Source of the DNA: Atrina japonica
Lineage: Eukaryota > Mollusca > Bivalvia > Pterioida > Pinnidae
Assembly (NCBI GenBank): GCA_030159075.1
Contig: BROG01000154.1
Span: forward strand, 176,001 to 240,000
Direction of reading: 5' to 3'
DNA: 64,000 nucleotides
Below are positions 705 to 64,000 of this stretch, piece by piece. Each line of letters begins with the position of its first letter. Position 1 is the first letter of the stretch. The translations under genes and the position numbers were made by a program. The notes under the pieces were generated by a model. It made no database searches. It was given only the letters and a program-made list of their open reading frames with translations, and was not told where the DNA came from.

Positions 705-760
705 CTTGCAGAAGAGTACCTGAAAGTTCAGACTGAATTGTCATTACTTATACAAAGAAA
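705..760 (+). CDS. MAP3K7: MAP3K7 internal exon A
   Basis: This is a 56-nt exon between an acceptor (TTATTTTTGCAG) and a strong donor (AAA then GTAAGT). It encodes LAEEYLKVQTELSLLIQR plus the first two bases of a Lys codon. The conserved KVQTE..LL.QRK motif marks the start of the TAK1 C-terminal coiled coil. A second AG seven bases into the exon (710-711) could be an alternative acceptor, but it would shift the frame. The preceding exon is not in the window. Confidence 0.88.
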
Positions 761-1871
761 GTAAGTAATATTTTCTCAATCACATACATCTAATCTGCTT
801 TTCTAATAATTGTCCTTTCTTCATGTTCTTTCTTCAAAAGCATTCTTTAAATCTTTGTATGAGAATGAAATTTGAACTGTACATTAGTTTAGAAAGGTGA
901 AGTATCATATGCTATCGTACCTGTCAAGTGTACTGAATTCGGCGGTAGTCTACCGATTTTTCTATTCATCTACCGCTTGTCTACCACCGAGAAAAAATCT
1001 ACTGATTTCTACCGATTTTTCTAATTTTCAACAGATTTCCCTATATTTCTATCGCTTCTTGTCCATTTTCCGGTGATCAGTAGATGTTTTTGTCAGGATT
1101 AAATGTTCTAAATCGTAATTTTCAATCTATTAATTGGCCACAAAAAAAAGCTTGAAATTTCTGGTGCCTCCATATCATTGAAGTATTTTTACTTTATTTC
1201 AATCCTTAGACCATAGATCTATTTTGTATAAGTATTAAGACATCTATTCTAGGTTATGTAAGTCCCCTATATCTTCCAAATAGTCATGAAGAACAAGGAC
1301 TAATAACCCTGTTTGTTAATTAATGTCATTAGACCATACAGAGGTGTCATTATCGGAGGTGTGCAGAGGGTAATTACACAATGACCTGTACTGTGGACAG
1401 GTACCTAATATACAGATTGATTACCTGTATATCTAATGACTAAACATCCACACCTATAATCACTATCCATATGTTCTGTACTATATACAGTTATCAGAGA
1501 TTAACATCATTGGTGTAATATTAATTTCATGCAGCTTCTGTAACAATCCTCAATGATTTTACTTTAAAAATTTAGCTGAGAAATATCAAAGCGAGATCGT
1601 GGTGTCTTCTACGATGTCCGTACTCCACATACTAAACAGTGTTATACATGTATCTTAAATTTGTGATGATTTCAATACAAAAATGATGTTTTATTTCATT
1701 TACATAATATTTTATACAAAGATAATAATATCATCCTGTAACACATTGAAACACATTAATATAACCTCAATAATCTTTTTTTTTTCTATTTAAAAGCAGA
1801 TGATTTGATATTTCTTTATCTATTCCTTATAAATTTCAAAGTCGACTAGAAAATTAAAAGAAATGTGATTG

Positions 1872-10900: not shown

Positions 10901-13900
10901 AGTTGGCCTCTCAGGAGGTTTCGTAAATGTGGCTTCATAAAACAGATAGTTTTTCATGAGAATGGCATCTCAAGGCAGGTTTCAGTGCATAAAGGTTGCA
11001 TATGGAAATAATAAATAATATCTGTAAAATTGAAGTGGTTATATCTGATATCAAATGAAATGATTGTTATAGATTTGTCTACAGAGTAATTGTATTGTAT
11101 CCATAATTGCAATTTGTACTAGCATTATTTTCACATATATTTCTATGTCCGCAGACATGGATAAATATGGCTGATAAATAATGTAAAATTTGCTAGAAAT
11201 TGTCATCATTGATAAACAATTACACAGTACATGATATAAGTTCTACTATCAAGATTCCTTCATTTCCTGACTTTTAGACATAATTTCTCTTGACATAACT
11301 GATAAAAGCCCATGACAACCATTTTAAACAGGAAAAAGGGATGGTTTTGGCACAGGCATATTTTGGAACTTGTTACATGTAAACCTGAGCAGAATAATTT
11401 TTAGGTGAATGTTATTTGCTGTGCACTAAAAATTATAGCACCGGTACATGGTCTGTTGTGTATTGAAAAATGTAGTATATGGTCTGTTGTGTACTGAAAA
11501 ATGCATTACATGGTCTGTTGTGTACTGAAAAATGCAGTATATGGTCTGTTGTGTACTGAAAAATGCAGTATATGGTCTGTTGTGTACTGAAAAATGCAGT
11601 ATATGGTCTGTTGTGTACTGAAAAATGCATTACATGGTCTGTTGTGTACTGAAAAATGCAGTATATGGTCTGTTGTGTACTGAAAAATGCAGTATATGGT
11701 CTGTTGTGTACTGAAAAATGTAGTATATGGTCTGTTGTGTACTGAAAATGTAGTATATGGTCTGTTGTGTACTGAAAAATGCAGTATTTGGTCTGTTGTG
11801 TACTGAAGAATACAGTACATGGTCTGTTGTGTACTGAATAATGCAGTATATGGTCTGTTGTGTACTGCAAAATACCATATATGGTCTGTTGTGTACTGAA
11901 AAATACATTATATGGATTGTTGTGTACTTAGAAATATAATACATGGTCTGCTGCACTGAAAAATATAGAACATCAACTGTTGTATACTGAAAATACAATA
12001 AATGGACTGTTGTACTGAAAAATACAGTACATAGTCTGATGTGTATTGAAAAATGCAGTACATGGACTGTTGTGTAATGAAAAATACAATATACATAGAC
12101 TGTTGTGCACTGAAAAACACAGAACTTGTTTACTGAAAAACACAGTACATGGACTATTGTGTACTGAAAAATATTATACATGGTCTTTTGTCTACTGAAA
12201 AATGCAGTGCATGGTCTGTTGTCTACTGGAAAATACAGTACATGGTCGGTTGTGCACTGAAAAATACAGTTCATGGTCTGTTGTGTATTGAGAAATGATA
12301 GTATCAGTACATTGTTGTGTTCTGAAAAATACAGTTCATGGTCTGTTGTATGCTGAAAAATACAGTACTTGAATTGCTGTATACTGAAAAGTGCAATACA
12401 TGGTCTGCTGTACTGAAAAATACAGTACATGGTCTGCTGTACTGAAAAATACAGTACATGGTCTGCTGTACTGAAAAATACAGTACATGGCCTTTTGTGT
12501 ACTGAAAAATACAGTACATGGACTGTTATGTACTGAAAAATATAAAACATGGTGTGTTGTATACTGAAAAATACAGAATATGCTTGATTGTGTACTGAAA
12601 AATACAGAATATGCTTTATTGTGTACTGAAAAATACAGTACATGGACTGTTGTATACTGAATAATATAAAACATGGTCTTTTGTATACTGAAAAATACAA
12701 GGTCTGTTCTGTATTGATAAATATAGTATATGGTCAGTTTTGCACTGGAAAACAGTACATGGGCTATGGCAGAAATATATGTGTCATTCTGTGAATTTTT
12801 TACCTATTACATTGCAGAACTCTCACTAGAATTAGTTCATTATTCAATTCACAAAAGAACAATGTAGTTTGATAATCTAAAACCAAATACATTAACCTTT
12901 TTACTCAGGTGAATCTTATTGTTCTCCAGGGTCCCATCTTTCATGGAATTTAATTGATATTTCATTGTGCAAAATTTTTGTTAATTGACACATGAGTATG
13001 TTAACCAATCAAAATGATTATATGGCTTGATTTTATAAAAATGTCATTTGATATAACCTTATCCAATTTGATAATGGCAAACAATATCAAATTAATTTTT
13101 TTTAGTAATCTTCATAATGTTTATATTTTTGTAATATTACTCATTAACTCCCAAGACTTAATTTCCATTAATCTCTATTAATTATAAATTTCTGAAATGA
13201 AAACTCTGAACATTTGTATGCGCATCCATCATAACAAAAAAAACTGTGTGAGAGCTAAAGGCGGTCGTTGATGTTGATGAATCCGTTGTGGAACAGTAAG
13301 AGTAATGAAATTATTTTTGCATTAAGGCTGAAATAAAGTGCATATATGTACATAGTTGAAATGAAAGTCAAACAATCTATGATTGAAGCAAGCCATTGTG
13401 TACTTGACTTACCTGGTTATTATCTGACTTAAATCACCTAGATAACGAGATGAAATATATCAATAATGTGTCTCGGTATGCAATTATTATCAGTTTATTT
13501 TTTTTAATTCGTGGTTTCCTTTTTGATGTATGACAATTATAATGTGCCTTATTGTAGGTTGTTTCAATAAACTAAAATGTTTGCCCTTGTACTAGCAATA
13601 GCATGCTATTAATTTGAACAACAGATGCTTAGAAATCAGTGAATCATGTTTCATATGGTTATAAAATATATGTTGGAAGATATGTTTTAAATAAAAAATA
13701 AAATTAAAAATTTTCAAAAAAAGTCTTAGAGGTAATATAAGTAGGTTTTGAATTCTTTAACATAGATTTACTGGCCTTTCATTTGGATAAGGAATGAATA
13801 GGTCATTGAAGTCACTCATCTTCAGTCGATATGACTTAAAGCAATAAAGTCTCTCATCTCTAGTCAATGTGACTTTAAGCCATAAAGTCTCTCATTCTTA

Positions 13901-16900: not shown

Positions 16901-19900
16901 TTGTATATGAATACCACACTGGACCTGACATTATTTTCACAAAATATATAGGAATATAAGATTTTTCATGCTTGTGTCTATCAAAATAATTATATCTTTA
17001 TTTTTCTCAATGGTTTTGTGTCTTAAGTATCAATTTAAGTATTATTTCATATTAAGCTTAATTTTAAATAAAAATTTCTCAATGCATGTACTTCATGATC
17101 TACAATGTAGATGCACGTAATCTAGTTGCACTAAAAAGTTTTGAAGGCTGTGCAACATGCTATAATTTTGGGAGAATTTTGCACTTTTCTTTCCTTTTCA
17201 AAGTCTCTCATTCTAACAGGATCACCATATAATTATCTAATTCTTACTGTAACATTGATTTACTTGAAGCTTATGTGAAGATGTAAAGAGTTATCTTTAA
17301 AAGATATCATGTTAATTGTGAGTTAAGGTAAACTGGTGAAAAATCAAATAGAAAATTCCGAGTGAAGGAAGACTGATTAAAAATCAAATAAAGGAAAATT
17401 TTTCCCTTTGGTTATCACCGATATTTTGTACTGCTGATTTATAACAAGTGTGTTGATAGCATTTAAGACACTTAAAACGAAAATTGAGCTTATCTAGATT
17501 CTTACGATTTAATTAGAAATTCATTACATAAATAATTGTCAGATATTATGGCACTTTGAAAAACTTTAAAACTTTACTTATATATTTTATCTTATCTATT
17601 TTGCGTTATGTTTATATTGTAAACTAAATTACATAATTTCAAATAGAGAGATGAGGATTTTAATACATATTACAGTACATGAATCTTGTGGCTGTTAATT
17701 TCAACACCTCAGTAATTGATTTTCATCTACTGGTATACAGATGAGTCGAATTTTCAGATGTCAAAGTTGAATGGCTGGTCCTGATTTGTATGGATAGAAA
17801 ATGATGTTAATCAAAGTTTTTGGTTATCTCAAATTTCCAGGTATCTTAAAGTAGTGGAGGTGGTCCCATAGATTTTGAGACAGCGAGAATTTAAAATGTT
17901 TCACAGAGAAATGGACTCTCATGGATAAATTGTCATTTTTGATACAAATGCAGAAATTTTTGTTAACTCTTAAGGGAGAATCATATGATATAGAATTACA
18001 CATTTCTAACTGCATGTGCAATAATGTTCTCTAAGAATTTGTAGAAAATCTTTTAATCTAATCTAGATCTGTTTTTGCTTTAGGTTGAATTGTGTTTTAC
18101 AGCTGAAGTCTGGACTTGATATACATTTTGTTTTTGTGTGTGTGTCTCTGATATAAAGTATAGAAGGGCTCAGTGGCAAGTGGTTTAGAGGGCCACACTT
18201 CAAATGTCTGTCATTTCTAATCAGAGTGGTTGTGAGCCCTGCTGGAAACTAAGTTAATTTTGTGAGAAAGTTTGCCATTGCAATTGCGCTTTCCCCAGGT
18301 ACATTGTTATTGCATTTTCTTTTCAGCATTGAAAACTCGCTACCATACAACTGAAAAATGAATTGTTGTGTGTGATGTAAAACTCAGTAAAACAAAGTGC
18401 ATCTAATTTAGACCATAACAGGGGTGACAGGTTATGTGTTGGCACAAAATGATAGAGCTACAGTACAAAGCAGTACAAAATTATAGAGCTACAGTACAAA
18501 GCAGCACAAAATGATAGAGCTACAGTACAAAGCAGCACAAAATGGTAGCTACAGTACAGTAGCACAAAATGGTAGAGCAATACAAAGCATGAAAATAAAG
18601 AGCTACAGTACAAAGCAATACAAAATGATAGAGCTACAGTACAAAGCAGTACAAAATGATAGAGCTAATACAAAAAATGATAGAGCTACAGTACAAAGTC
18701 AATACAAAATGCTACAGTACAAAGCAATACAAAATGATAGAGCTACAGTACAAAGCAGCACAAAATGATAGAGCTACAGTACAAAGCAATAGAAAGTGAT
18801 AGAGCTACAGTACAAAGCAATACAAAATGATAGAGCTACAGTACAAAGCAATACAAAATGATAGAGCTACAGTACAAAGCAGTAAAAAATGATAGAGCTA
18901 CAGTACAAAGCAATACAAAATGATAGAGGTACAGTACAAATCAATACAAAATGATAGAGCTACAGTACAAAGCAATACAAAATGATAGAGCTACAGTACA
19001 AAGCAATACAAAATGATAGAGCTACAGTACAAAGCAATACAAAAAGTGTACAGTACAATGATACAAAATGCTAAAGCTACAGTACAAGAGCAAGATAGAG
19101 TCACAGTACAAAGCAGTACAAAATGATAGAGCTACAGTACAAAGCAGTACAAAAATGATAGAGCTACAGTACAAAGCAATACAAAATGATAGAGCTACAG
19201 TACAAAGCAATACAAAATGATAGAGCTACAGTACAAAGCAGCACAAAATGATAGAGCTACAGTACAAAGCAATACAAAATGATAGAGCTACAGTACAAAG
19301 CAATACAAAATGATAGAGCTACAGTACAAAGCAATACAAAATGAGCTACAGTAGCAATACAAAATGAGAGCTACAGTAACAAAGCAATACAAAATGATAG
19401 AGCTACAGTACAAAGCCAGTACAAAATGATAGAGCTACAGTACAAAGCAGTACAAAATGATAGAGCTACAGTACAAAGCAATACAAAATGATAGAGCTAC
19501 AGTACAAAGCAGCACAAAATGATACAGCTACAGTACAAAGCAATACAAAATGATAGAGCTACAGTACAAAGCAGCACAAAATGACAGAGCTACAGTACAA
19601 AGCAATACAAAATGATAGAGCTACAGTACAAAGCAGTACAAAATGATAGAGCTACAGTACAAAGCAATACAAAATGATTAGAGCTACAGTACAAAGCAAT
19701 ACAAAATGATAGAGCTACAGTACAAAGCAATACAAAATGATAGAGGTACAGTACAAAGCAATACAAAATGATAGAGCTACAGTACAAAGCAATACAAAAT
19801 GATAGTGCTACAAAGCAATACAAAATGATAGAGCAAGTAACAAAGCAATACAAAAATGATAGAGCTACAGTACAAAGCAATACAAAATGATAGAGCTACA

Positions 19901-22900
19901 GTACAAAGCAGTACAAAATGATAGAGCTACAGTACAAAGCAGTACAAAATGATAGAGCTACAGTACAAAAGCAGTACAAAATGATAGAGCTACAACAAAG
20001 CAGTACAAAATGATAGAGCTACAGTACAAAGCAATACAAAATGATAGAGCTACAGTACAAAGCAATACAAAATGATAGAGCTACAGTACAAAGCAATACA
20101 AAATGATAGAGCTACAGTACAAAGCAGTACAAAATGATAGAGCTACAGTACAAAGCAGTACAAAATGATAGAGCTACAGTACAAAGCAGTACAAAATGAC
20201 AGAGCTACAGTACAAAGCAATACAAAATGATAGAGCTACAGTACAAAGCAGTACAAAATGATAGAGCTACAGTACAAAGCAGTATACAAAATGATAGAGC
20301 TACAGTACAAAGCAGTACAAAATGACAGAGCTACAGTACAAAGCAGTACAAAATGATAGAGCTACAGTACAAAGCAGTACAAAATGATAGAGCTACAGTA
20401 CAAAGCAGTACAAAATGACAGAGCTACAGTACAAAGCAGTACAAAATGATAGAGCTACAGTACAAAGCAGTACAAAATGATAGAGAGATAGAGCAGTACA
20501 AAGCAATACAAAATGACAGAGCTACAGTACAAAAGCAGTACAAAATGATAGAGCTACAGTACAAAGCAATACAAAATGATAGAGCTACAGTACAAAGCAA
20601 TACAACATGATAGAGCTACAGTACAAAGCAATACAACATGATAGAGCTACAGTACAAAGCAATACAACATGATAGAGCTACAGTACAAAGCAGCACAAAA
20701 TGATAGAGCTACAGTACAAAATATAAAATGAAATAGCACAGTACAAAGCAATACAAAATGACAGAGCTACAGTACAAAGCAGTACAAAATGACAGAGCTA
20801 CAGTACAAAGCAATACAAAATGATAGAGCTACAGTACAAAGCAATACAAAATATTAGAGCTACAGTACAAAGCAATACAAAATGATAGAGCTACAGTACA
20901 AAGCAATACAAAATGATAGAGCTACAGTACAAAAGCAATACAAAATGATTAGAGCTACAGTACAAAGCAATACAAAAATGATAGAGCTACAGTACAAAGC
21001 AATACAAAATGATAGAGCTACAGTACAAAGCAATACAAAATGATAGAGCTACAGTACAAAGCAATACAAAATGATAGAGCTACAGTACAAAGCAGCACAA
21101 AATGATAGAGCTACAGTACAAAGCAATACAAAATGATAGAGCTACAGTACAAAGCAATACAAAATGTTAGAGCTACAGTACAAAGCAGCACAAAATGATA
21201 GAGCTACAGTACAAAGCAATACAAAATGATAGAGCTACAGTACAAAAGCAATACAAAATGATAGAGCTACAGTACAAAGCAAGTACAAAATGATAGAGCT
21301 ACAGTACAAAGCAATACAAAATGATAGAGCTACAGTACAAAGCAATACAAAATGGGTAGCAAGTACAAAATACATAATGAGCTACAGTACAAAGCAATAC
21401 AAAATGATAGAGCTACAGTACAAAGCAATACAAAATGATAGAGCTACAGTACAAAGCAATACAAAATGATAGAGCTACAGTACAAAGCAATACAGAATGA
21501 TAGAGATACAGTACAAAGCAATACAAAATGATAGAGCTACAGTACAAAGCAATACAAAATGATAGAGCTACAGTACAAAGCAATACAAAATGATAGAGCT
21601 ACAGTACAAAGCAATACAAAATGATAGAGCTACAGTACAAAGCAATACAAAATGATAGAGCTACAGTACAAAGCAATACAAAATGATAGCTACAGTACAA
21701 AGCAGCACAAAATGATAGAGCTACAGTACAAAGCAATACAAAATGATAGAGCTACAGTACAAAGCAGCACAAAATGATAGAGCTACAGTACAAAGCAATA
21801 CAAAATGATAGAGCTACAGTACAAAGCAATACAAAATGATAGAGCTACAGTACAAAGCAATACAAAATGATAGAGCTACAGTACAAAGCAATACAAAATG
21901 ATAGAGCTACAGTACAAAGCAACACAAAATGATAGAGCTACAGTACAAAGCAGTACAAAATGATAGAGCTACAGTACAAAGCAATACAAAATGATAGAGC
22001 TACAGTACAAAGCAATACAGAATGATAGAGCTACAGTACAAAGCAGTACAAAATGATAGAGCTACAGTACAAAGCAATACAAAATGATAGAGCTACAGTA
22101 CAAAGCAATACAAAATGATAGAGCTACAGTACAAAGCAGTACAAAATGACTACAGTACAAAGCAAAAAAATGATAGAGCTACAGTACAAAGCAATACAAA
22201 ATGATAGAGCTACAGTACAAAGCAATACAAAATGATAGAGCTACAGTACAAAGCAATACAAAATGAAGATGACAGTACAAAGCAATACAAACATAATAGA
22301 GCTACAGTACAAAGCAATACAAAATGATAGAGCTACAGTACAAAGCAATACAAAATGATTAGAGCTACAGTACAAAGCAATACAAAATGATAGAGCTACA
22401 GTACAAAGCAATACAAAATGATAGAGCTACAGTACAAAGCAATACAAAATGATAGAGCTACAGTACAAAGCAGTACAAAATGATAGAACTACAGTACAAA
22501 GCAATACAAAATGATAGAGCTACAGTACAAAGCAATACAAAATGATAGAGCTACAGTACAAAGCAACACAAAATGATAGAGCTACAGTACAAAGCAATAC
22601 AAAATGATAGAGCTACAGTACAAAGCAATACAAAATGATAGAGCTACAGTACAAAGCAATACAAAATGATAGAGCTACAGTACAAAGCAATACAAAATGA
22701 TAGAGCTACAGTACAAAGCAATACAAAATGTTAGAGCTACAGTACAAAGCAATACAAAATGTTAGAGCTACAGTACAAAGCAATACAAAATGATAGAGCT
22801 ACAGTACAAAGCAGTACAAAATGATAGCTATAGTACAAAGCAATAAAAAATGATAGAGCTACAGTACAAAGCAATACAAAATGATAGAGCTACAGTACAA

Positions 22901-25900
22901 AGCAATACAAAATGATAGAGCTACAGTACAAAGCAATACAAAATGATAGAGCTACAGTACAAAGCAATACAAAATGATAGAGCTACAGTACAAAGCAATA
23001 CAAAATGTTAGAGCTACAGTACAAAGCAATACAAAATGATAGAGCTACAGTACAAAGCAATACAAAATGATAGAGCTACAGTACAAAGCAGCACAAAATG
23101 ATAGAGCTACAGTACAAAGCAGTACAAAATGATAGAGCTACAGTACAAAGCAATACAAAATGATAGAGCTACAGTACAAAGCAATACAAAATGATAGAGC
23201 TACAGTACAAAGCAATACAAAATATTTTATCTGTACACCCCTAATTTTGGAAAATAGACTGTATTGTTTTGGTTTCTGACAGAACATGGATGTGCCACTT
23301 ATAATGGTAGACCTATACTTCATTTCTTTGGGTCTTTTGGTAATGGCTGACTTTCAGAAATGACCTTGAGTTACTTTTTTATTCTCTTTTTTCAGAAATG
23401 ACTTAATAAAAGAGTTTGAACTAGATGAGCAGAACCAACAATCAAGTACTAGATTGATAGAGGAATACAATCAGATATATGAAGAAAACGTAAGTCAAAT
23501 TTATACAACCTATATCAGTTCCCTGACTGGTTTCACAGGTGCACTGTCTCAGAATTTCACCAAATTCTATTTTCCATTATTTCACTTTTATAATATAGTT
23601 CTTTGCTATAGTCAAAGTATATTAAGTAAAACTTATTTAGTTAAGAAGGGGTGGATTGATTAATAATAACCAGAAATGTTTTGTAAGTGACAAAATTAAG
23701 GGGGTACTTAGTGCATGGTTAAGCACACTCATTTACACCATTGCGACCCGGGTTCGATCCTTACATTGTGCTGTCTTTTATGTGCAAATCTCCAGAAACC
23801 CCGGATAGGCTACTGTCCTATGAAAATGAGACAGCTTGGAACCGAGCTCCCGTGTACAGTGGTGTGTTGCAGTTTAAAGAACCCTGACGCTCAATGCCAT
23901 ATGTCGAGCTTAGTGTTTGAGCTACACCGGCATTGTTTCGTCTCCATATGAGTGAAAGATCTTGGTGGACTTAAACAACAATAAACAAACAATAAACAAA
24001 AAACTAAATTAAGGTATTGTATGTAAAGTGGCTGAGTTGTAAAGTATTTGCCTTACAAGTGCTGTTTTTTTTTTGGTGCAAATCCAGACCTGTATAGGGT
24101 ACTCTTATGAAGATTTTAGCCATTAACAAGTTTTTAGCCAGTTAGTGACCAGCTTATAGCAAGTGTTTGCCATTAGAGCTCGCGGTAGCTTAAGACACGG
24201 AGCCATTAGGCCAATACAAGTTTTTGAGTTCAAGCTTGCCACGCAAGTTTTTAGCCATTAGGCCATTACAAGATTTTAGCCATTACAAGTTTTTAGCCAT
24301 TAGGCCATTACAAGTTTTTAGCCATTAGGCCATTACAAGTTTTTACCCATTAGGCCATTACAAGTTTTTAGCCATTAGACCATTACAAGTTTTTAGCCAT
24401 TAGACCAATACAAGTTTTTAGCCATTAGGCCATTACAAGTTTTTAGCCATTAGGCCATTACAAGTTTTTAGCCATTAGGCTATTACAAGTTTTTAGCCAT
24501 TAGGCCATTACAAGTTTTTAGCCATTAGGCCAATACAAGTTTTTAGCCATTAGGCCAGTACAAGTTTTTAGCCATTAGGCCATTACAAGTTTTTAGCCAT
24601 TAGGCCAATACAAGTTGTTAGCCATTAGGCCATTACAAGTTTTTAGCCATTAGGCCATTACAAGTTTTTAGCCATTAGCCCAATACAATTTGTTAGCCAT
24701 TAGGCCATTACAAGTTTTTTCTATGTTAAGCATCCAGCCTGAATTCAAAAACCTAACTACTTATCTGGAAAAAACAGACACATCCTGATGAAAAACACAA
24801 AACCCTTCAATTGTAATTGTGATCATTTAATAGAAATAGATACATGTAGCATCATGTGATTGAGTTAAGTAAATTGGTCCTACTAATTAGAGTAAGCTAC
24901 AATACCCTGACTGTGCTAGAGTACTTTACATATTTGATGGTAGATCTATATTAGCTTTATTTTCTTTGAACATTATGTCTGCATCATACCAACTGCAAAC
25001 GTAAAATACTTTGATTTAATGTGCTTATGAAGGACTATACACTCCCAGATTACAAAGTGTGTGTGTGTGTTTTACAAATATGTTATGGTATCCTTAACCA
25101 AAGCACCCAGGGCATGACAAAAAATTGAAAAAAGGGGTAGACGTTCATTGAGACCAATTAATAATCAAATTGACGTAACATAGTTAATTTTTTATAAGGT
25201 ATGGTGGTTGTAGTTGTTGTAGTTAATACAGTGGCACCTATCAACATTGTTGTATTGCATGGCTCTAGAAATAAACCGTTATTTATGTTTTTCTGGTCCT
25301 CATCGCCTTGTCAACCAGCTAGAAAAGATACTTGAATGTGTGTGAAAAAAGGGGAAGTGGCAATTATAGGGACATGGGGTCTTATTTGGTCAAATTTGGT
25401 ATTTTTTTTTTGTCATAGTATGCTCAGCTTGCTCAGCTTGCTCAGCAAAAATCTGCTTAAGTCCATTGTTTTGGTTAAAATTTGTGTCACCTCACCTAAA
25501 TCTGTTGATATTTTGATATAAGTTCAAGATTTTTGATGCAAGATTAAGTGTGACTGATGATTTTAGAAAGAAAAAAATCATTCTTTTGTCAGAAAAAAAG
25601 AATCAATTATTATGCAACAAAAAAGTACATTTTCAGAGGATTGGTATTTGCTTTGATACTATCATGTTTTCATTTGAAACTTATGAATATGAAGTCATTT
25701 GGAGCAGATATTATTGGCTGTGTGTGTTGGGTGGGTGGGTGTGTGTGTTTTAACTTCACTTGCAATGACCTTAGGTACTCATTATTACAAGAATATATCT
25801 ATTCCCAATGTTATTTTTCAAGACCCTATCTACTTTAGTAACTTGTGTTGTTATAACCAAAAAACAAAACAAAAACAAAACAAACAAACAAATGGATTTG

Positions 25901-28900: not shown

Positions 28901-31900
28901 AGGTCAAAGACTTCACGATTTTAAAGCACAATGCCTAAATCGGGCACAGAGGCCTCTATTGAATTGTTGCATGTGTCTAAAACATACATTAAATACGGCT
29001 TCTGTATAACCATAGTAGCAGAACAGATGAAGAAATCTGACAATCTATTTTAAAGGTTTGGATGTAGGTTAATAGTTTGTTTCCAGTGTCTGAAATCAGA
29101 TGATACTCAAAACAAGTTTTTGTTTCGAAGTTAATTATTACAAAATGTTCGAGTGTACTTTGTTATTTTGATGTTGATATTACAAAGTGATTATGACGTA
29201 CCAAAATATGTCATTTTGTATTTGTGGGTAATTGACACTTTGAATATAAGCAGCCACTAAACATTATATGGAAAATTAGTATCTGAGAAATCACACGGAT
29301 ATGTGAAGACATATAGTTTTGTCAGCGCAAGATAAAATCAGGAAGAATAAAAACTGTAAAATGTGGCATATCATAACTTTATTTTTAGAGAAAATGATAA
29401 AATAATATTTTGCTTGAAATTCGGTTAATTTTGTGATTATTTATGATGGCCTTAATGTTTCTGTCATATCTAAATGAATTTGAAGCTCTACTTGCTCGGG
29501 ATCTATGTACTCTATGTTCAGAAGATCTATATTTTCAGTCATTTTATTATCTTGTCAAGAAAAATGCTGTCGCAGCTTTTTCATTAGAACTGTCATGAAA
29601 TTTCCTGATAAAGGATTTAAGATTATTAAGAAAATGTTCGGGTTTCTTCAAATGCAATTATAATTTTCTAACGTCTTTCATCATTTGAGGGTGTTTACAT
29701 TATACTCAGTTCATATAAAAGTCAAATTTGACATACAAATTTAATGGTTATAGTTATTTTCTTTATGTCTTGATACAAAAGACAAACATGGTGTTAATTG
29801 GGAAAAGTCACTAACAAGAGCACCGTAAGGGGTACATAATAACCCTGTCATGAATATACTGTGAAAGGCTTTCTCTATGATTACTTTGATATCATGTTTA
29901 TAATATATATTATTCAGCACCATAAAAGTAAGTATGGGTGAGAGTATGCTTCAGATAAGACATTTTTTAAGTGCCATTTTCCTACAGTGGCCTTGACTTT
30001 TGAGGTATGACATTATTGAGAACAAGTGTTGTGTGAAGTTTGAAAACTTTCCCATTTGTGGTGTACGAGAGTTACTTCTGACCAAAAAAAAATGCACTCT
30101 GCTATGGTGACCTTGACCTTTGAGATATGACCTGAAGTACTATAGCAATTGTAAACTGGCATTGCAATAGGAATAGCAATAGTTTACCTTCCAGTAGTAC
30201 TATTGTACTAATAAACTGGCAATGCAATAGACAATCACAACAGTGTACATTCCAATAGTACTACTGCAATAGTAAACTGACAATGTAATAGAAATCAGAA
30301 TATTTTACCTTCCAATAGTACTGTTGCAAATGATAAACTGGCAATGTAATAGACAATCAAAATAGTGTATCGTCCAATAGTACTTTTGCAGAGTAAACTG
30401 CAATGCATGACTAAACAAACATAATAGTGAGTTAGATTATTGATAGTTTTGGTAGATGTATTTTTTGCATAAAAGTTTACTTAAATCCTTGAATATTCAG
30501 AGTTTCTCCAGCAGATGGATTACATACATTATAGTGTACCAGAGAAATTTTAAACAGTAAAGAATACTTTTCCTCTCAGTTTCATCTTAAAATCTCATGA
30601 AAATTTCATCATTGGAACAAGATTGAGAAACTTTTGATTCATTTTCTTGACTTCAACATTAACATATGTATCTGAATAAAATTGATAAAAATGGCAATAA
30701 CTCATATCAAATTAACTCACTGTCAAGGTTGTTTCAAGAAACAAGAAGTCTTTCAAATTACAGAACTGTCATTCGTCAAGAAAGCCAGTAGGATTTCTGT
30801 GCCATCTGTCTCATTGAGGAGTGAGTAGTCAAACAAATAGAACAAAATATCTACAGATAACAACAAAGTTACAACAAATAATAGAAGGTCAACAAAATAT
30901 CTACAGATAACAACAAAGTTACAACAAATAATAGAATGTCAACAAAATATCTACAGATAACAACAAAGTTACAACAAATAATAGAATGTCAACAAAATAT
31001 CTACAGATAACAACAAAGTTACAACAAATAATAGAATGTCAACAAAATATCTACAGATAACAACAAAGTTACAACAAATAATAGAATGTCAACAAAATAT
31101 CTACAGATAACAACAAAGTTACAACAAATAATAGAAGGTCAACAAAATATCTACAGATAACAACAAAGTTACAACAAATAATAGAATGTCAACAAAATAT
31201 CTACAGATAACACAACAAGTTACAACAAATAATAGAATGTCAACAAAATATCTACAGATAACAACAAAGTTACAACAAATAATAGAAGGTCAACAAAATA
31301 TCTACAGATAACAACAAAGTTACAACAAATAATAGAAGGTCAACAAAATATCTACAAGTTACAACAAATAATAGAAGGTCAACAAAATATCTACAGATAA
31401 CAACAAAGTTACAACAAATAATAGAGGTCAACAAAATATCTACAGATAACAACAAAGTTACAACAAATAATAGAATGTCAACAAAATATCTACAGATAAC
31501 AACAAAGTTACAACAAATAATAGAATGTCAACAAAATATCTACAGATAACAACAAAGTTACAACAAATAATAGAAGGTCAACAAAATATCTACAGATAAC
31601 AACAAAGTTACAACAAATAATAGAATGTCAACAAAATATCTACAGATAACAACAAGGTTACAACAAATAATAGAATGTCTTTCGATGAAATAAAAAAACT
31701 TTAACAGATATGAGATATGATGCGTATTGACTAGTGACATGAAATGATTTGAAACATTCTTACATTAGGCTATCCTTTTGCCTTCCTGTCTTGTCTTGTC
31801 GAGTTAAAAAGAGATACTCAAGGTCACAGTTTATGTAATGTGCATTGATGTTTATCAAAGATATGCAGTTGGAAGCAGGTCTTTGTTAAGCCATAATAAG

Positions 31901-51884: not shown

Positions 51885-52170
51885 TGCAGAGGCAGTCTGC
51901 TTGCTGGTGCATTATTGTAACAGGGGCATGGAGAATCCCGTTTGATGTCAACGTTTCGTGAATTTTGCTGTCTGTGTGATGGCCTTGTTTACAGTTACTC
52001 TGTTTTAGCTGGGTGGAGTTTTGGGTTGCCTGTTCGATGGTGGTTGTTGGGTCATCTGTGCCAATTGTGTTGGGGATTTTTGTCTCCTGGATATCCTTAA
52101 GATTAATGCTTTGGTATATTTTGTGTATTAGCGCAACATCTGTTTGAAAACTGTATAACTTAGACATTTA
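51885..52170 (+). mobile_element. 3'UTR block of the Penelope-like element, internally deleted
   Basis: In plus orientation: CCCGTTTGATGTCAACGTTTCG, GGCCTTGTTTACAGTTACTC, GAGTTTTGGGTTGCCTGTTCG, GTCTCCTGGATATCC and AATGCTTTGGTATATTTTG. It is collinear with 52945-53265 but lacks the central GGATGCTTACTCC..CCTGATCCCACC part. The minus-strand open frame here (about 95 codons) is incidental. Confidence 0.6.
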
Positions 52171-52329
52171 CAGTTGAACTGGTGCAAATTATGAGCGGTG
52201 CTATGGACCATTCCTAATACAGAGGGGATTCTAAAAAGTATCGCATTTGTAAGTACGTGAGACATTGATTTTAAGCCTCATCCACAAGATGTAACTTTCA
52301 CTTCTTATGCCGAGCGTTTGGCGACGGAA

Positions 52330-52430
52330 CAGACAATGCATTTCTTAAGTATTAGATATTACTCCGTAATAGGGATTGAATCCGGGACCCCCGCCCGTCT
52401 GTGTGGAAGGCTCCCGTACAAGATAAAGCT
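52330..52430 (-). mobile_element. Possible tRNA-like SINE head
   Basis: The minus strand reads GTCCCGGATTCAATCCCTATT, which resembles a B box, after GTAGCTTTATCTTGTACGG. There is no body or tail. Confidence 0.3.
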
Positions 52431-52675
52431 ACACATAAGTGTCAACTCTTCATTGTTTATATTGATGCATTGGAGAACTTGTATTTTGTTATCTCGTCAA
52501 TGACACCTGAGCCGCATTAAATAGACAGCTGTGTTTGTTGAATGTTCTCTTTATTGGTATGCTGCCTTCTAGTCTTTCAAAAACAGGTACATGTATATAT
52601 GATGCACAATATCTATGTCGCTGTATTAAATTGTATTATACCACTTTCCCGTTAGGAAATCTATTAAAAATTGTA

Positions 52676-52719
52676 GCTCAACTGATGGAGTCTAATTGAC
52701 AGAAACGATCGTCTTGAGC
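52676..52719 (+). ncRNA. Hammerhead ribozyme-like motif, core mutated
   Basis: Stem I GCTCAA (52676-52681) pairs with TTGAGC (52714-52719). Between them: CTGATGG, AGTC, loop, GACA, GAAA and the palindrome ACGATCGT followed by the cleavage-site C. It matches 63829-63872 except for CTGATGG in place of CTGATGA (position A9) and one change in the stem II loop. Cleavage is probably weakened. Confidence 0.6.
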
Positions 52720-52739
52720 ATTCTAACTTTGGTATTTAA

Positions 52740-53600
52740 AGATGAACATAAGAAATTCTAATCGACATATAAGATGCTATGGTAACAAAAAGTTCTGATG
52801 ACTTGTTAGATAACATGATGTTGCCCGTTGATTCGTCCTATGCCCAGGTGATAAGTCAGATAATTTTGGACTTACAAATATTACGATGAGACTACAAAAA
52901 TATCTACGGACGTCTTAAATAATGCTCTTATATGGAGTATGATAGTCTTGTTTGCGATTACTCTATTTCACTGGGTGAAATGTTGAGTTGCCTTTTCGTT
53001 GGCGGCTGTTGAGACGTCTGTACCAATGGTGGCAAGGATTCGTTCCTCACGTATTTTATTTTGACTTGACTGTAAACTTACGGCCGGAGTGACCCGTCGA
53101 CAGTGGATGCTTACTCCTCCAAGGCACCTGATCCCACCTCTTGGTTTGAAGAGGTCTGTGTATGTCGTCCATTTTTGCTAGATTTTTAACTGTGTCCTGG
53201 ACATCTTAAAGATTTATACTTTGGTATCTGAGATGTTTTATATTATAGTATTGTTGACTTGTCAAACGTTACGATGATAAATTAGAAAGGTTCTTTTAAA
53301 TTGTCTGATCGTTCTTCCTACTTATAAGATTTTGCAGCATTCTATATTTAGCTCTGCTGAATCATCAGACCTTACTGTGACAGGTCATATAGACTTCGCG
53401 ACTAGTCATATGACATATCAGAGCGCTCTTCCTACTCGTAATATTTTGCAAGATGCTATAGACTTTCCAGACATTACGGCGATAAGTTAGGTATTTTTTT
53501 CGACATGCCAAACATTATGACGAAAAGTCATCTAGCTCTGCTGAATCACTCTACCATACTGTTACTTATAATAGATTATATAGACTTTGACTGAATGAGA
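52740..53600. repeat. Degenerate long-period repeats around a 3'UTR block
   Basis: Related segments with TCTTCCTACT..TAAGATTTTGCA or GTAATATTTTGCA, TAGCTCTGCTGAATCA (twice) and ACATTA.G.CGA.AAGT recur with a period of roughly 100-130 bp. Divergence is high. Confidence 0.4.
52945..53265 (+). mobile_element. 3'UTR block of the Penelope-like element (plus orientation, full)
   Basis: GTCTTGTTTGCGATTACTC, ACTGGGTGAAATGTTGAGTTG, CGTTGGCGGCTGTTGAGACG, GGATGCTTACTCCTCCAAGG, CACCTGATCCCACCTCTTGG, GATTTATACTTTGGTATCTG. It has the same order as the reverse complement of 62205-62580. I recall this core as one of the commonest oyster repeats. Confidence 0.75.
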
Positions 53601-55929: not shown

Positions 55930-56275
55930 CATCTCCGATACCAAAGTATAAATCTTTAGGATGTCCTGGACACAGATACAAATCCAGAAAAAATGGACAA
56001 GCACGGGCCTCTGCAAACCAAGAGGTTGGATCAAGTGCCATGGAGGAGTAAGCATCCCCTGTCGACCGGTCACACCCGCCATGGTCCACAGTCAAGTCCA
56101 AATGAAATACATGAGGAAGGAATCCTCGTCACAATTGGTACAGACATCTCAACAAAAAGGCAACTCAACATTTCACCCACTGAAACATAGTATTCGCAAA
56201 CAAGACTATTATACCGAACGTAAAATTTTCAGGACATTGACATCAAACGCGGTTTTCGATATCCCCGTGTCACTA
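55930..56275 (-). mobile_element. 3'UTR block of the Penelope-like element
   Basis: In minus sense it runs from the RT side outward: AACGCGGTTTTCGATATCC (plus-strand reading, 56247-56265), TTCGCAAACAAGACTATTATAC, CGTCACAATTGGTACAGACA, GGAGTAAGCATCCCCTGTCG, GATACCAAAGTATAAATCTT. This is the complete block order. Confidence 0.75.
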
Positions 56276-56730
56276 ATTTATGTGGAAAGCTGTGTAAAGA
56301 GTATAGAAGTCGTATCTTTTGATACTGCGAATTTGCGAAAAAATGTGTGCCTTTAAATTTTCTAAAAGTTGTTCAGAATTTTTAAGTATCCACATCTGAT
56401 TTACACCGCTTCTGGAATAAGCAACTGTACAGTATTGCTGAAGTTTCCCATTAATGGCTGTCAATATCTTGATAAGGAGTAAAGATAAAAGTTTGATAGA
56501 ACATTTGCTGGATCCTGCTATGTACCTCTGCTTTTATGGGTTTATGAAATTTAGGTATCCAATATAAATATGGTAGCTCAAAATCAGTGTCGGTTGTAGG
56601 TACATCAAAAGAGCGTAATACGGACAGTATCTCGTCTTTTGAAAGTGAGTTACGTGTGTATGTAGGATTACCAGAATGATGTTAGTTAAAAGGTTAGCTG
56701 CGTTTTCCAAAAAAAGTATTATTCTGTTTT
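56276..56730 (-). pseudogene. Penelope-like RT N-terminal part, joined to the 3'UTR by a deletion
   Basis: The minus strand encodes YCTVAYSRSGVNQMWILKN, then SEQLLENLKAH and, after a shift, DFYTLYT. Upstream lie remnants of ELPYLYWIP and a KQRYIA/SSKCSTK-like segment. This is the region before RT box GIPMGTN. It is directly followed by the 3'UTR block, so the catalytic core is missing: an internal deletion of at least about 700 bp compared with 59460-60350. Confidence 0.68.
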
Positions 56731-58543: not shown

Positions 58544-59149
58544 ATCAAATAAATAAAAAAGAGATTGAGCAACAAAGCACTTCAATAGTTTAAATCATAT
58601 ATCGTTGTTAAGTTGATATCAGACCATGACTTTTATCAATTATTTTCAACTGATTAACAATTTGTGATAGACAAAAAAATGAAAAGATTATGTTTATAAA
58701 TTTATAAAACATTAAGAAGTTACATATGTTATCTCTGTTCTTTTGTTTTCATATCTATCATTTACAATGCAGTAATAAATTAATCAAGCGATTAACGCCT
58801 TGAATACAAAATAAAAAAAACAGGAACAAAATAATTCACAGAATCACGGTTATCACTTATTTACGGCTGCATTCTACCATTTGCCATATTCCGATATTGC
58901 GACAATATTAGCAATTACAGTGACAGTCACATGCTCAGTGATATGAATAATTGACAGGGCTACCTCCTTTGGACATGAAATTCACAATTTAATATTCCTC
59001 TAATGGGTTCTTCTAGTCCACATGCCAAAAGGAGACCTTATAAGAAAGAATTCTATTGATTTCACATATTTCACTTAAATGTTAAACACTTTTTACACGA
59101 CCTTTCAAATTATCAATAAGATTCGGCGTAAATGCATTGATATAAAAAG
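58542..59149. other. Nothing recognised
   Basis: AT-rich sequence before the first Penelope-like block. Confidence 0.35.
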
Positions 59150-59470
59150 TCTTAGATACCAAGGTATAAATCATTAGGATGCCCAGGATAAAGGTACAAG
59201 TCTGGGAAAAAACGAACAAACACGGACCTCTTGAAATCAAGAGGTGGAATCAGGTGCCATGGAGGAGTAAGCATCCCCTGTCGACCGTGAATCCATAGTC
59301 AAATAAAAAATGAAATACGTAAGGAAGGAATCCTCGTCATAATTGCCACAGACGTCTCAACAACCGCCATCGCAAACAAGACTATTATACCGATCATAAA
59401 ATTTGCGGAACGTTGACATCAAACGCGGTTTTCGATATTATTGTGTCAATAATTTGTCAGTAAATAGTTT
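59150..59470 (-). mobile_element. 3'UTR block of Penelope-like copy 1
   Basis: GATACCAAGGTATAAATCAT, GGTGGAATCAGGTGCCATGG, AGGAGTAAGCATCCCCTGTC, CGTCATAATTGCCACAGACG, AACGTTGACATCAAACGCGG, in the same order as the other blocks. It is continuous with the RT reading frame that ends just to its right, so it is the element's 3'UTR. Confidence 0.78.
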
Positions 59471-61432
59471 ACCTCTGTATAAGAAATCTTCATATGTTGA
59501 ACATGCCATGGCATATCTGATTATTTGTGAAATATAAACGCCATATGCAAATGATTGTGGGATATTACTACTTAAATGTGGAAAAGTAACGATGGTTTGT
59601 CGTATAGCATAGTTGTTAATTTTCCGTCTGTGTCTATAGTTAGTAAAATGTCTAAGAATGAAGCGTGTTTGCTTGATTCTGTTGTATCTTTTATTTCTAG
59701 TTCGCTGGGATATATGGCATTGACATATGTATGAAAATTGTCATTATTAATTGACAAAACGTCGTCGATAAATCTAAATGTCAAATTAAAGGACACCGCT
59801 AACTTTTTCTTCTTTTGATTTAGCAGTTTCTGAATGACGTCTGCCTCATATGAATTAAGGAACAGGTCAGACAATGAAGGAGCACAATTGGTACCCATAG
59901 GAATGCCGACGGTTTGTTGAAAGACCACGTCTCAAAACATTACAAATATATTGTCTATTAGATATTCCAGCATCTTTTTACATCAACTTCAGTATATCTA
60001 TGTGTACAATCAGAGTGGTGTTTGACAAAATAGGTATCATGATAACCAATCACTAGGTATTTAAATTTCCAGGTACCACTTTTAGTGAAAAAAACAGTTG
60101 TTTTTGAAGCTCTAAAGTCTCTCTCTTTTTTTCTTTATGTGGAATTGTTGTGCAAAGAGTAGAGAAGTCGTATCTTTTGATAATATGAATAATTGTGTTC
60201 CTTCAAATTTTCTAAAAGTTGTTTAGAATATTTAAGTATCCACATCTGATTTACACCGCTTCTGGAATAAGCAACTGTACAATTTTGCTGAAGTTTCTCC
60301 TGAACGGCTCTTAGTATCTTGGTAAGAAGTTTCGGTTGTAGGTACATCAAAAGAACGTAATACGGACACGTGATTTTGAAGGATTTCGTCCCTTGAAAAA
60401 GGGTTACGTAGGATTATCAGAATCTGGTTTAAACCCTAGTTCTTCTAATAAACAATTATAGTAATGTGCCTTACGAATAAAAGCTACATGTATATTATTT
60501 GAGGCTTTGTCTGCTGGGACCAGTACATATAAACTATCCAGCTCGGTTATCACTTCTAAATCACTAAACACAGAGGGATAACGTGTTTTCATAGTTTCCG
60601 AATACAAGATTATATTAACCATCGTATGACTTTTAGCCATTCAGACAAAGCGTCCGGTTCCACGTCTTCATGTATGGTCAATCGTCTGGCATAATCTTCG
60701 ACAGAATTCATACCTAAACTTAAACTCTGTCGCCAATTAAAGGAACGGGCTTCGCGGTATTTTGTACCTCTTAAAATAAGTTTTTTAGGGCTTCATTTTC
60801 AACAATAGAAACGTCTCCGGTGTTGCCATGCCCGAAAGGATTATTTTTGTCTAGGCACTGCAAAACCCGTTTGTAATTGAATAGCATGGTTGCGATGCTG
60901 GGTGTATAGTTATATGAAATGCAAGGTGTGGTCTTCAATTTAAAATATGGTGGAACACAGGACCGAACTTTTTGTGATTTACAACTTTGCGAATGTTTAA
61001 AGTGTCTTTACCTTTATTAATTAATCTAAGTTAAAGGAAACGACGTTTCTGTTATCGCTAGTAACGCATGTGGGCTTGAACAGTCTGTGATAAGCAATGT
61101 TTGGGGGGGGGGTAATTCTTGCTTCCTGAAAAAGTCTAAAAGGATTAGAATAAAATTTGCTGCGAATGTCATGAAGAGCCATTTTTTGTTGACGTAAGGT
61201 AAAAGAGATGAAAAGTGGAATCATGTATGTTGGGTCTGTTCTATAAATGATGTCTTACGTTGGAATTAAAAAGGTCCATCACATTGACATTACCACACTG
61301 CGGACACGACAAATTTCCCACACATTGGATATTATCATTACCTCCATAGGGGTATGCAGTGCCAAGCTGTCCAATCCAGTATTCTTTATGTTGTCTACGG
61401 AAGGGGGTACTCAAGGTAGGATTGTTGGTCCA

Positions 61433-61526
<94 letters not shown>

Positions 61527-61930
61527 TTCAATTATACGCACTATCATAGACAAAACGAAATAGTCAGGTGGGTTTAAATGCCGATAGAGTATCTGGTTAC
61601 CCCCATTTTTAACCTCAAATCTATGACCAGATACTCTTTTATGTAATGGCCCCTTTGTTTTGCCAACATTTGATTTGTTGCATTTTATAATTTCTGCATC
61701 ATAACCTTATGGAGACGTATACAACGTACACATTTTCCACAAAATATTATTTCAGCCGTTTCAATGCACAATTTATGTATATTTTCAGAATTGTTATTTT
61801 CATAGTAGATTATAAAAATTGTACATTTGGGACCGATAAATCTTTTTAAAGGACACACACATATTTTCCCATCAGTTTGCAATTCTAAATTCCACCTTTG
61901 GGTAATATAATATTGTCATCATTCAAAAAG
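59471..61930 (-). pseudogene. Naiad-type Penelope-like retroelement: N-terminal GIY-YIG, then reverse transcriptase, degraded
   Basis: Read on the minus strand, in order. (1) A Cys-rich part at 61882-61685 with CVCPLKRFIGPKC and FCGKCVRC. (2) In another frame, a GIY-YIG-like core at 61676-61617, NVGKTKGPLHKRVSGHRF, with the Arg and His expected of that nuclease. (3) EYWIGQLGTAYPYG and CPQCGNVNVMDLFNS near 61400-61250, interrupted by an expanded TA tract. (4) HDIRSKFYSNPF and FKPTCVTSDNRNVVSF at 61224-61021. (5) LDSLYVLVPADKASNNIHVA at 60640-60404. (6) SRSGVNQMWILK near 60290. (7) the RT core at 59928-59572 with TVGIPMGTNCAPSLSDLFLN, FRFIDDVLS (catalytic FIDD at 59761-59772) and ELEIKDTTES. 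Nuclease before RT is the permuted Naiad arrangement (as I recall the literature). Several frameshifts and stops make it inactive as it stands. Confidence 0.82.
61436..61526. repeat. (TA)n microsatellite inside the retroelement relic
   Basis: About 45 TA units splitting the nuclease segment from the EYWIGQLGT segment. It post-dates the element's decay or grew from a short TA run in it. Confidence 0.92.
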
Positions 61931-62190
61931 TTAAATAACATTCTATACCACTAGAGGACATTTTTAATCAATAAGTTCTCGTTTCCATAGCCATTTGAGC
62001 AAATGTGTAAGCCTATGATCTGACGCTGTCGTTGGTCTGCTAAATCATCCAGAAAGAGGAAATGATTGTCTCATACGTTAATGACAGCTCGGGTATCTGA
62101 AGTACATTTAGTTTAAAAAAAGGTCTGGTTTAAGTTTAATTGCTTTTGTCAAAACAATTATTGGTGTCTACAGTTTTTGGCAATCTGAGT
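61931..62190. other. 5' flank of Penelope-like copy 1, unassigned
   Basis: No coding match. It may contain the 5'UTR or the N-terminal end of copy 1. It lies between copy 1 and the 3' end of the next copy. Confidence 0.35.
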
Positions 62191-62194
62191 TGTA

Positions 62195-62600
62195 ATATAA
62201 CAAATCTCAGATACCAAGGTATAAATCAATAGAATGTTCAGGACATAGATACAAATCCGATAAAATTGGACACACAAAGACCCCTGAATACCAAGAGGTG
62301 GGATCAGGTGCCATGGAGGAGTAAGCATCCCCTGTCGACCGGTCACATCCGCCGTGAGTCCACAGTCAAGTCCAATGAAATACATGAGGAGTGAATTCTC
62401 GTCACAACTGGTACAGACGTCTCAACAACCGCCAACGAAAAGGCAACTCAACATTTCACTTAGTGAAACAGAGTATTCGCAAACAAGAATATTATACCGA
62501 CCGTAAAATTTGCGGAACGTTGACATTAAACGCGGTTTTCGATATCCCTGTGTCACTAATTTGTCATTGAGTAGTTTAACCTCTGTATATTAAATCTTCA
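62195..62600 (-). mobile_element. 3'UTR block of Penelope-like copy 2a
   Basis: A complete block: TCAGATACCAAGGTATAAAT, GGTGGGATCAGGTGCCATGG, AGTAAGCATCCCCTGTCGAC, CACTTAGTGAAACAGAGTAT, AACGTTGACATTAAACGCGG, TGTGTCACTAATTTGTCA. Confidence 0.78.
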
Positions 62601-62850
62601 TATATTGTACATGCCCTGACATATCGGGTCATTTGTGAAATATAAACTCCATATGCGGGTGACTGAGGGATATTACTACTTATATGTGGAAAATTTACGA
62701 TGGGAAAACCGAAATCGTCGCGTTTGTCGGTCGTATAGCTTAGTTGCCAATTTCCCGTCTGTGTCTATATTAAGTAGAATGTCTAAATACGAAGCGTGTG
62801 TGCTTGATTCTGTTGTATCTTTAATTTCCAGTTCGCTGGGATATATCACA
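62601..62850 (-). pseudogene. RT C-terminal fragment, Penelope-like copy 2a
   Basis: It aligns with 59500-59715: CTTCATATATTGTACATGCC, GGATATTACTACTTATATGTGG, GTCTAAATACGAAGCGTGTG, TCCAGTTCGCTGGGATATAT. It breaks off at 62850, where the hammerhead-bearing segment begins. The plus-strand open frame here is a shadow. Confidence 0.65.
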
Positions 62851-62886
62851 TTGTTAATATTATAAAGATAATACCAAAGTTATAAT

Positions 62887-62929
62887 GCTCAAGACGATCG
62901 TTTCTGTCAATTAGACTTCATCAGCTGAG
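62887..62929 (-). ncRNA. Hammerhead ribozyme-like motif (type I), minus strand
   Basis: Reading the minus strand: stem I strand CTCAG, core CTGATGA, AGTC, loop, GACA, GAAA, the palindrome ACGATCGT as short stem III, the C before the cleavage site, then TTGAGC closing stem I with one G-U pair. It is in the same sense as the surrounding RT relics and lies between two of them. Confidence 0.68.
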
Positions 62930-62949
62930 GTACAATTATGAATAGATAT

Positions 62950-63800
62950 TCTAAAGAAATGTCTAAGTATGAAGCGTGTTTGCTTGATTCTGTTATAATT
63001 CCTAGATTGTTGGGATACATCGCATTGACATATGCATGAAAATTGTCATTATTAATTGACAAACCGTCGTCGATATATCTAATGTCAAATTAAAATACAC
63101 CACTAACTTTTACTTCTTTTGATTCAGCAGTTTCTGAACAAAGTCTGCTTCGTATGAATAAAGGAACAGGTCGGCCAATAAAGGGGCGCAATTGGTTCCC
63201 ATAGAAATGACGACTGTTTGTTGAAAGACCACATCTCCGAACATTACAAATATAATGTCTATTAGAAATTCCTGCATGTTTTTTATATCATTTTCAGTGT
63301 ATTTATGTGTATAACCAGAGTGGTGTTTGACAAATTAAGTATCCTGATAGCCAATCACTGGATTTTTAAATTTCCGGGTACCACCTTTAATGAAAAAACA
63401 GTTGTCTATGAAGCTAAAAATCTTTCTTTTAACTTTTTACGTAGAATAGTTGTGTAAAGAGTAGAGAAGTCATATGTTTTGATACTGTGAATTCGAGAAA
63501 ATTTGAGGGCACACAAATTTTCTAAAAGCTGTTTAGAATTTTTTAAATATCCACATCTGATTTACACCGCTTCTGGAATAAGCAACTGTACAGTATTGAT
63601 TAAATTTCTCCTTAACGGCTGTCAATATCTTGGTAAGGAGTAAAGATAAATGTTTGGTAGAACATTTGCTGGATTCTGCTATGTATCTTTGCTTATATGG
63701 GGTTTTATGAAGTTAAGGTATCCAATATAAATATGGTAGCTCAAAATCGGTATCCGTTGTAGATTTATTATTTGTCCTTGTATGATACCGCTTTCTCTTT
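62950..63800 (-). pseudogene. RT fragment, Penelope-like copy 2b
   Basis: The minus strand keeps YIDDG at 63066-63077, a mutated TVVISMGTNCAP near 63200 (GIPMGTN in other copies), NQMW near 63550, and upstream ELPYLYWIP-like sequence near 63720. The left end repeats about 70 bp of the RT tail already present at 62779-62849 (about 15% different). So 2a and 2b are separate copies or a template-switch product. It has frameshifts and stops. Confidence 0.68.
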
Positions 63801-63828
63801 AGAAAATATACATATATTTTGAATTGGA

Positions 63829-63872
63829 GCTCAACTGATGAAGTCTAATCGACAGAAACGATCGTCTTGAGC
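63829..63872 (+). ncRNA. Hammerhead ribozyme candidate (type I), best copy
   Basis: Stem I GCTCAA (63829-63834) pairs perfectly with TTGAGC (63867-63872). Core CTGATGA is at 63835-63841 and core GAAA at 63855-63858. Stem II is GTC/GAC (63843-63845, 63851-63853) with a TAATC loop and an A-A mismatch at its base. Stem III is the palindrome ACGATCGT (63858-63865), followed by the cleavage-site C at 63866. A very short palindromic stem III is typical of hammerheads in Penelope-like elements and retrozymes, which act better as dimers (recalled). The non-GC pair at the base of stem II is the main doubt. Confidence 0.75.
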
Positions 63873-64000
63873 ATTATAACTTTGGTATTATGTTTATAAT
63901 ATTTAACCCACTGCTGGTGGACCGTTTGAGTCCCTGAGGATATACATAACCCTAGTACCTGGTATTTCGATACCTTATAATAATGATAATCTTATACTAA

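Follow-up and report, generated by a model that had tools for sequence, protein, structure and literature searches.

A putative minimal type I hammerhead ribozyme with an A-A mismatch at the base of stem II, carried by a short dispersed element among Penelope-like remnants of Atrina japonica

The 64,000-nucleotide stretch of Atrina japonica DNA analysed here (the window) contains, near its downstream end, a motif that resembles a type I hammerhead ribozyme and lies beside the remains of Penelope-like elements. The locus raises the question of whether the motif is a genuine hammerhead in spite of a mismatch at the base of stem II, and of which element it belongs to. Our analysis points to a minimal type I hammerhead that probably belongs to a short (~100–126 bp), dispersed, non-autonomous element present in the window as copies A, B and C; the hammerheads of copies A and C are two extra copies absent from the original prediction. 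The features referred to below are:

63829–63872, plus strand: hammerhead B, the reported motif (RF00163 24.5 bits, below the gathering score of 34; R1 41.2 bits)
62887–62930, minus strand: hammerhead A, second copy (RF00163 22.3 bits; R1 37.5 bits)
52676–52719, plus strand: hammerhead C, third copy (RF00163 19.2 bits; R1 36.2 bits)
63778–63903, plus strand: dispersed element copy B, with hammerhead B (nhmmer 63779–63902)
62856–62956, minus strand: dispersed element copy A, interrupting the reverse transcriptase (RT) remnant (nhmmer 62957–62857)
52631–52736, plus strand: dispersed element copy C (nhmmer 52632–52736)
62195–63762, minus strand: Penelope-like RT remnant, 5'-truncated and split by element A; in sense, the next remnant follows immediately downstream
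59140–61915, minus strand: best preserved Penelope-like remnant, RT core at 59572–59931 (RVT_1, E 0.0015)
62777–62853, plus strand: flank of copy A, possible long target-site duplication, repeated at 62957–63028
62957–63028, plus strand: second copy of the duplicated flank at 62777–62853

Hammerhead B is closed by a stem I of six pairs (63829–63834/63867–63872, GCTCAA/TTGAGC), followed by the core CTGATGA at 63835–63841, a stem II of three pairs (63843–63845/63851–63853, GTC/GAC) with the loop TAATC, and GAAA at 63855–63858. At the base of stem II A10.1 (63842) faces A11.1 (63854), the stem III palindrome ACGATCGT occupies 63858–63865, and C17 is at 63866, with the predicted cleavage site 3' of it. 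Read directly from the sequence, the fixed core elements (CTGATGA, GAAA and UC before the cut), the perfect 6-bp stem I and the palindromic stem III are all as the original prediction had described them. The core CUGANGA...GAAA...UH with stems I, II and III is complete in copies A and B, and copy C reads CUGAUGG, with core A9 changed to G (CTGATGG in the DNA). In hammerhead A the outer stem I pair is broken (C opposite C) and the inner pair is G-U; hammerhead B has one loop II letter changed relative to A and C. A loose pattern, CTGATGAN{4,24}GAAACN{4,14}GTC, matched twice in the window, and 100 shuffles gave a mean of 0.03 matches, none of them with two. A descriptor requiring the stems also gave two matches in the real window, counted as one event because they are copies of one element, and gave 4 matches per 400 order-1 random windows and 0 per 400 order-2 random windows.

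Two covariance models support the type I assignment of the original prediction, at different strengths. Rfam at gathering level found no hammerhead in the whole window, and at E up to 10 none in the last 4 kb, the latter miss being attributed to speed filters. When short stretches (~110–120 bases each) were scanned with laxer filters, positions 1–45 of RF00163 (Hammerhead_1) aligned to exactly 63829–63872 with 24.5 bits (E 2.8e-4), and the full model length also aligned to copy A (22.3 bits, E 1.4e-3) and copy C (19.2 bits, E 0.014). The RF00163 gathering score is 34 bits, and as all three copies fall under it they are not filed as members of that family. Like RF00163, the window motif has the full model length, CUGAUGA, GAAAC..GUC and an open stem I, whereas it differs in having A-A rather than a pair at the stem II base and just two stem III pairs in a single copy. 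The second model, R1, was built from 13 viral-contig hammerheads with an A-A stem II base, without the window sequence, and none of its training loci had been retrieved via the window's own stem II. Run over the whole window with filters off, R1 recovered hammerhead B (63830–63871, 41.2 bits, E 2.2e-10), hammerhead A (62888–62929 on the minus strand, 37.5 bits, E 3.2e-9) and hammerhead C (52677–52718, 36.2 bits, E 8e-9), and its fourth-ranked match scored 11.4 bits (E 0.58), against 36–41 bits for the three copies. Since the R1 E-values are rough, owing to a short calibration, the gap in bits is the telling measure. The covariance check suggested with the original prediction has accordingly a divided outcome, below gathering level with RF00163 and strong with R1, and does not refute the candidate.

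In PMC3088659 the 10.1–11.1 pair is described as the most conserved after A15.1–U16.1, with a natural U-U exception reported; in the window hammerheads these positions are A-A. The exact 32-base core had no match in viral contigs, and a looser stem II pattern had none in genome contigs. The window stem II with a free loop was found in five viral-contig stretches (six matches), three of the six, two in contig L004 and one in L007, having full stems I and III. One L004 hammerhead has a stem-loop II of exactly AGTCTAATTGACA, identical to copies A and C, whereas its stem I (GTAATA/TATTAC) and its stem III, which has six pairs past A15.1–U16.1, differ from those of the window and are fully paired; in Rfam this hammerhead scored 22.9 bits as RAGATH-1-hammerhead and 13.4 bits as RF00163, both below gathering. 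In L007 a second hammerhead with an ordinary G-C stem II base follows 690 bases on.

A wider A-A pattern was matched in 96 viral-contig stretches. From 102 collected viral-contig loci came 35 rows with stems, 31 of them A-A; after duplicate removal 27 of 70 distinct A-A matches had stems, a figure drawn from scans that fixed A-A and including several close relatives. In an open scan, among the matches listed, stems were present in 50/51 with G-C, 6/18 with U-C and 1/39 with all other combinations, and full stems in none of the eight A-A loci listed (L008–L015). From these sequences we conclude that A-A at the stem II base is a minority but natural state. The original prediction had called the mismatch unusual, and uncommon it is; it was not treated as disqualifying, because natural exceptions exist (U-U in PMC3088659, A-A in viral contigs). 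The viral-contig A-A hammerheads (L004, L007, L020–L095) have this base in common with the window copies, whereas several have a longer stem III, and their surroundings are unrelated, lying in L004 and L007 between phage-like genes. As side observations, L004 carries a complete match at 666–707 (minus strand) and a core match at 1093–1117 (minus), and L007 has matches at 11669–11693 (plus) and ~12359 (plus); the intergenic hammerheads repeated in these two phage-like contigs have the stem I GTAATA/TATTAC in common and differ in stem II (A-A or G-C) and stem III. L007 11300–12500 had no similar record in a phage collection, and an A-A hammerhead region in L024 (6230–6340) is ~79–81% like places in 15 Klebsiella phage records, among the matches listed.

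The three copies are homologous well past the ribozyme, over a dispersed element of ~100–126 bp. The 5' end of copy A is shorter than those of B and C, the 3' end of copy C is shorter than those of A and B, and the downstream end of copy B lies less than 100 bp from the window edge. In the three-copy alignment the whole motif is gap-free, with 4 of 44 columns variable against 11 of 47 in the flanks (Fisher p 0.09), so that conservation of the motif above its flanks is suggested only and is not significant. Copies A and B make up an inverted repeat whose 92-nt arms are 90% complementary and separated by 864 nt; in a plus-strand transcript across 62856–63903, B would be expected from the sequence to pair with the opposite arm. 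The window holds no same-strand tandem pair, copies B and C being ~11 kb apart. The minimum-energy structure calculated for copy B (63778–63903) has an outer helix of ~10 pairs that closes off the entire element, with the hammerhead region inside. At 29877–29909 a short stretch lacking the hammerhead matches the element's 3' part at 85% (nhmmer just 3.4 bits). The left part of copy B also matches 25 bp of the coding remnant at 61762–61786 (E 0.003), a similarity set aside as probably due to chance.

Folding energies, computed without tertiary contacts, separate the monomer from the dimer. Stem III has two pairs and a GAUC loop in the monomer and eight pairs in the dimer. For the 44-mer of copy B the hammerhead fold was calculated at -4.6 kcal/mol and the minimum at -10.2 kcal/mol, a gap of 5.6, and in the minimum-energy fold the core is paired with the stem III strand. 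The copy B double hammerhead was calculated at -24.0 kcal/mol, compared with -20.4 kcal/mol for two separate minimum-energy strands, and lies 2.1 kcal/mol above the best two-strand fold (-26.1 kcal/mol); copy C has the double hammerhead itself as its best two-strand fold, at -25.4 kcal/mol. The same calculation gave hammerhead-like minimum structures for three viral A-A hammerheads as monomers. Self-cleavage of the monomer is disfavoured by the calculated energies, and the balance between monomer and two-strand folds favours a dimer mode. A dimer mode has been described both for motifs with a palindromic stem III (PMC3088659; PMC6466107) and for the minimal type I hammerheads that Penelope-like elements carry (PMC7761336).

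Fragments of one Penelope-like family lie at 55931–56599, at 59140–60368 and further upstream, and at 62195–63762, with 51911–53245 in the opposite orientation; copy C sits between the fragments 51911–52069 and 52937–53245. The best Pfam match of the RT remnant is RVT_1 (E 0.0015, below the Pfam cut-off), a 119-residue piece of the RT core matched 618 proteins at E up to 0.001 (best 120 of 618 listed), and among solved structures telomerase RT comes closest by sequence, with a weak match (E 0.13). Two RT relatives (L001 and L002) come from contigs titled as Bathymodiolus gill-symbiont assemblies, which are most simply explained as host DNA; no RT relative was found in viral contigs. On the minus strand a possible GIY-YIG-like stretch, read by eye at 61706–61244 and split by an AT microsatellite, would lie N-terminal to the RT. 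This stretch (61244–61706) had no match in Pfam and no homologue in a sequence search, so it stays a lead, although by its place ahead of the RT it could correspond to the arrangement of the permuted Penelope-like clade. Craig et al. 2021 reportedly describe such a clade, with permuted domains and an N-terminal GIY-YIG endonuclease upstream of the RT, which is said to be without canonical hammerheads. The AT microsatellite spans 61436–61526 within the coding remnant. Elsewhere in the window there are minisatellites with periods of 31–34 bp (18444–23223, and also 6413–7721, 8419–9709 and 11444–12762), the largest with ~156 copies and a strong AT skew (0.42 at 20001–24000).

Within the RT remnant, copy A is bordered by flanks in which 70–77 bp of RT sequence are repeated. 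The two flanks differ at 12 of 71 gap-free columns, and a comparison of each with the other remnant (59645–59723) shows 8 differences in the 71; all three agree in 57 columns, the two flanks alone in 2, the left flank and the remnant in 6, and the right flank and the remnant in 6. By these comparisons the duplicated flanks may be an old long target-site duplication or may stem from two remnants joined, and both fit. R1 found no hammerhead from the best preserved remnant onwards (59140–62194), and no convincing one in L001 and L002 (12.8 and 7.0 bits), fragments that may stop short of the 5' end. The original prediction was right that Penelope-like RT remnants adjoin the motif; the link it drew between them is one of position only, the ribozyme being in its own short element.

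Several other origins have to be weighed against a separate short element. The motif might be a detached pseudo-LTR (pLTR) piece of the neighbouring autonomous Penelope-like element, acting in tandem or inverted pLTR arrangements, a reading that we consider unlikely yet worth keeping in view. In its favour, each of the three copies is found in or next to Penelope-like fragments; copy B stands inverted at the 5' side of a 5'-truncated copy, an arrangement of the kind reported for Penelope (inverted pLTRs and partial tandems; PMC3846280); and in Anolis a Penelope-like hammerhead has been assayed (PMC11167929). However, the RT coding remnant is broken by copy A, which has duplicated flanks on its two sides, R1 detected no hammerhead in 59140–62194, where the remnant's ORF start is uncertain, and the related mussel symbiont-assembly fragments reached at best 12.8 bits, with the reservation on their 5' ends given above. 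A point of caution for any such role comes from the Anolis hammerhead, which failed to cleave in the absence of its protein and whose mutants left insertion in vitro unaffected (PMC11167929). With the minimal type I hammerheads known from Penelope-like elements or dispersed in animal genomes (PMC7761336), the window motif shares a very short stem III, a possible dimer, a dispersed distribution and Penelope-like elements nearby, and it has the minimal dimer-type stem III of the Penelope-like hammerheads; in contrast to them it was not seen at a pLTR or, as far as that start can be placed, an ORF start, and it sits in a separate short element. The primary papers on these hammerheads are reportedly Cervera and de la Pena 2014 and Lunse et al. 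2017.

A metazoan retrozyme family, whose short tandem repeats carry type I hammerheads and are expressed as circular RNA, seems improbable as the source. PMC7229834 reports ~5000 hammerhead copies in 350–390 bp repeats of Mytilus galloprovincialis and mussel retrozyme duplications of more than 4 bp, and metazoan non-LTR retrozymes, known from mussels, resemble the window element in that a short non-coding repeat carries a type I hammerhead. The tandem units of retrozymes measure ~170–400 bp, whereas the window units are single, ~100–126 bp and thus shorter than 170 nt, and non-tandem at all three loci. Repeat-type hammerheads such as those of Aedes, likened here by their description in PMC3088659, have a palindromic stem III and a loop III that permit a double hammerhead, as in the window. 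That the motif is a chance resemblance in an AT-rich repeat is highly improbable: the stem descriptor did match in order-1 random windows, and the copies count as one event, but it matched in no order-2 random window, R1 gave 41 bits against a background of 11, and stem-loop II recurs in a viral hammerhead.

We prefer the reading of a minimal type I hammerhead within a short, dispersed, non-autonomous element. The full core, the three stems, the repeated presence of the motif and its resemblance to viral A-A hammerheads are there to be read at the level of sequence. Against it count the Rfam scores below gathering level, the folding energies of the single copy, the lack of a same-strand tandem pair in the window, the complementary arm that B would meet in a plus-strand transcript, and conservation of the motif not significantly above that of its flanks. 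RNA of an intact element is predicted to be cut after C17 (63866), which would leave 2',3'-cyclic phosphate and 5'-OH ends. The active form would most likely be a double hammerhead, with two copies joined through their ACGAUCGU palindromes and exchanging stem I, because a lone stem III has two pairs and a four-base loop. Ancestrally the ribozyme may have processed the element's multimeric or read-through transcripts ahead of retrotransposition, for which the surrounding Penelope-like machinery is a possible agent, and the window copies are probably relics of a decaying element. A more specific proposal, that of an independently mobile A-A hammerhead element of ~125 nt living off, and inserting into, a permuted-domain Penelope-like element, is doubtful.

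By its sequence the window hammerhead looks like an addition to a known kind of ribozyme, with a mismatch also seen in viral hammerheads, and the finding suggests that searches which demand a stem II base pair, or the Rfam gathering score, overlook real hammerheads. Animal genomes are reported to hold thousands of minimal type I hammerheads, mostly dispersed in non-coding DNA, and such hammerheads are common in animal mobile elements, their role being described as unknown (PMC7761336). If the proposal of a ~125-nt mobile element were true, the element would rank as the smallest retrozyme-like passenger, its palindromic stem III restricting cleavage to the dimer. A short element with little besides a ribozyme, in or beside Penelope-like elements, would make a simple test case for whether mobility is affected by cleavage of the dimer.
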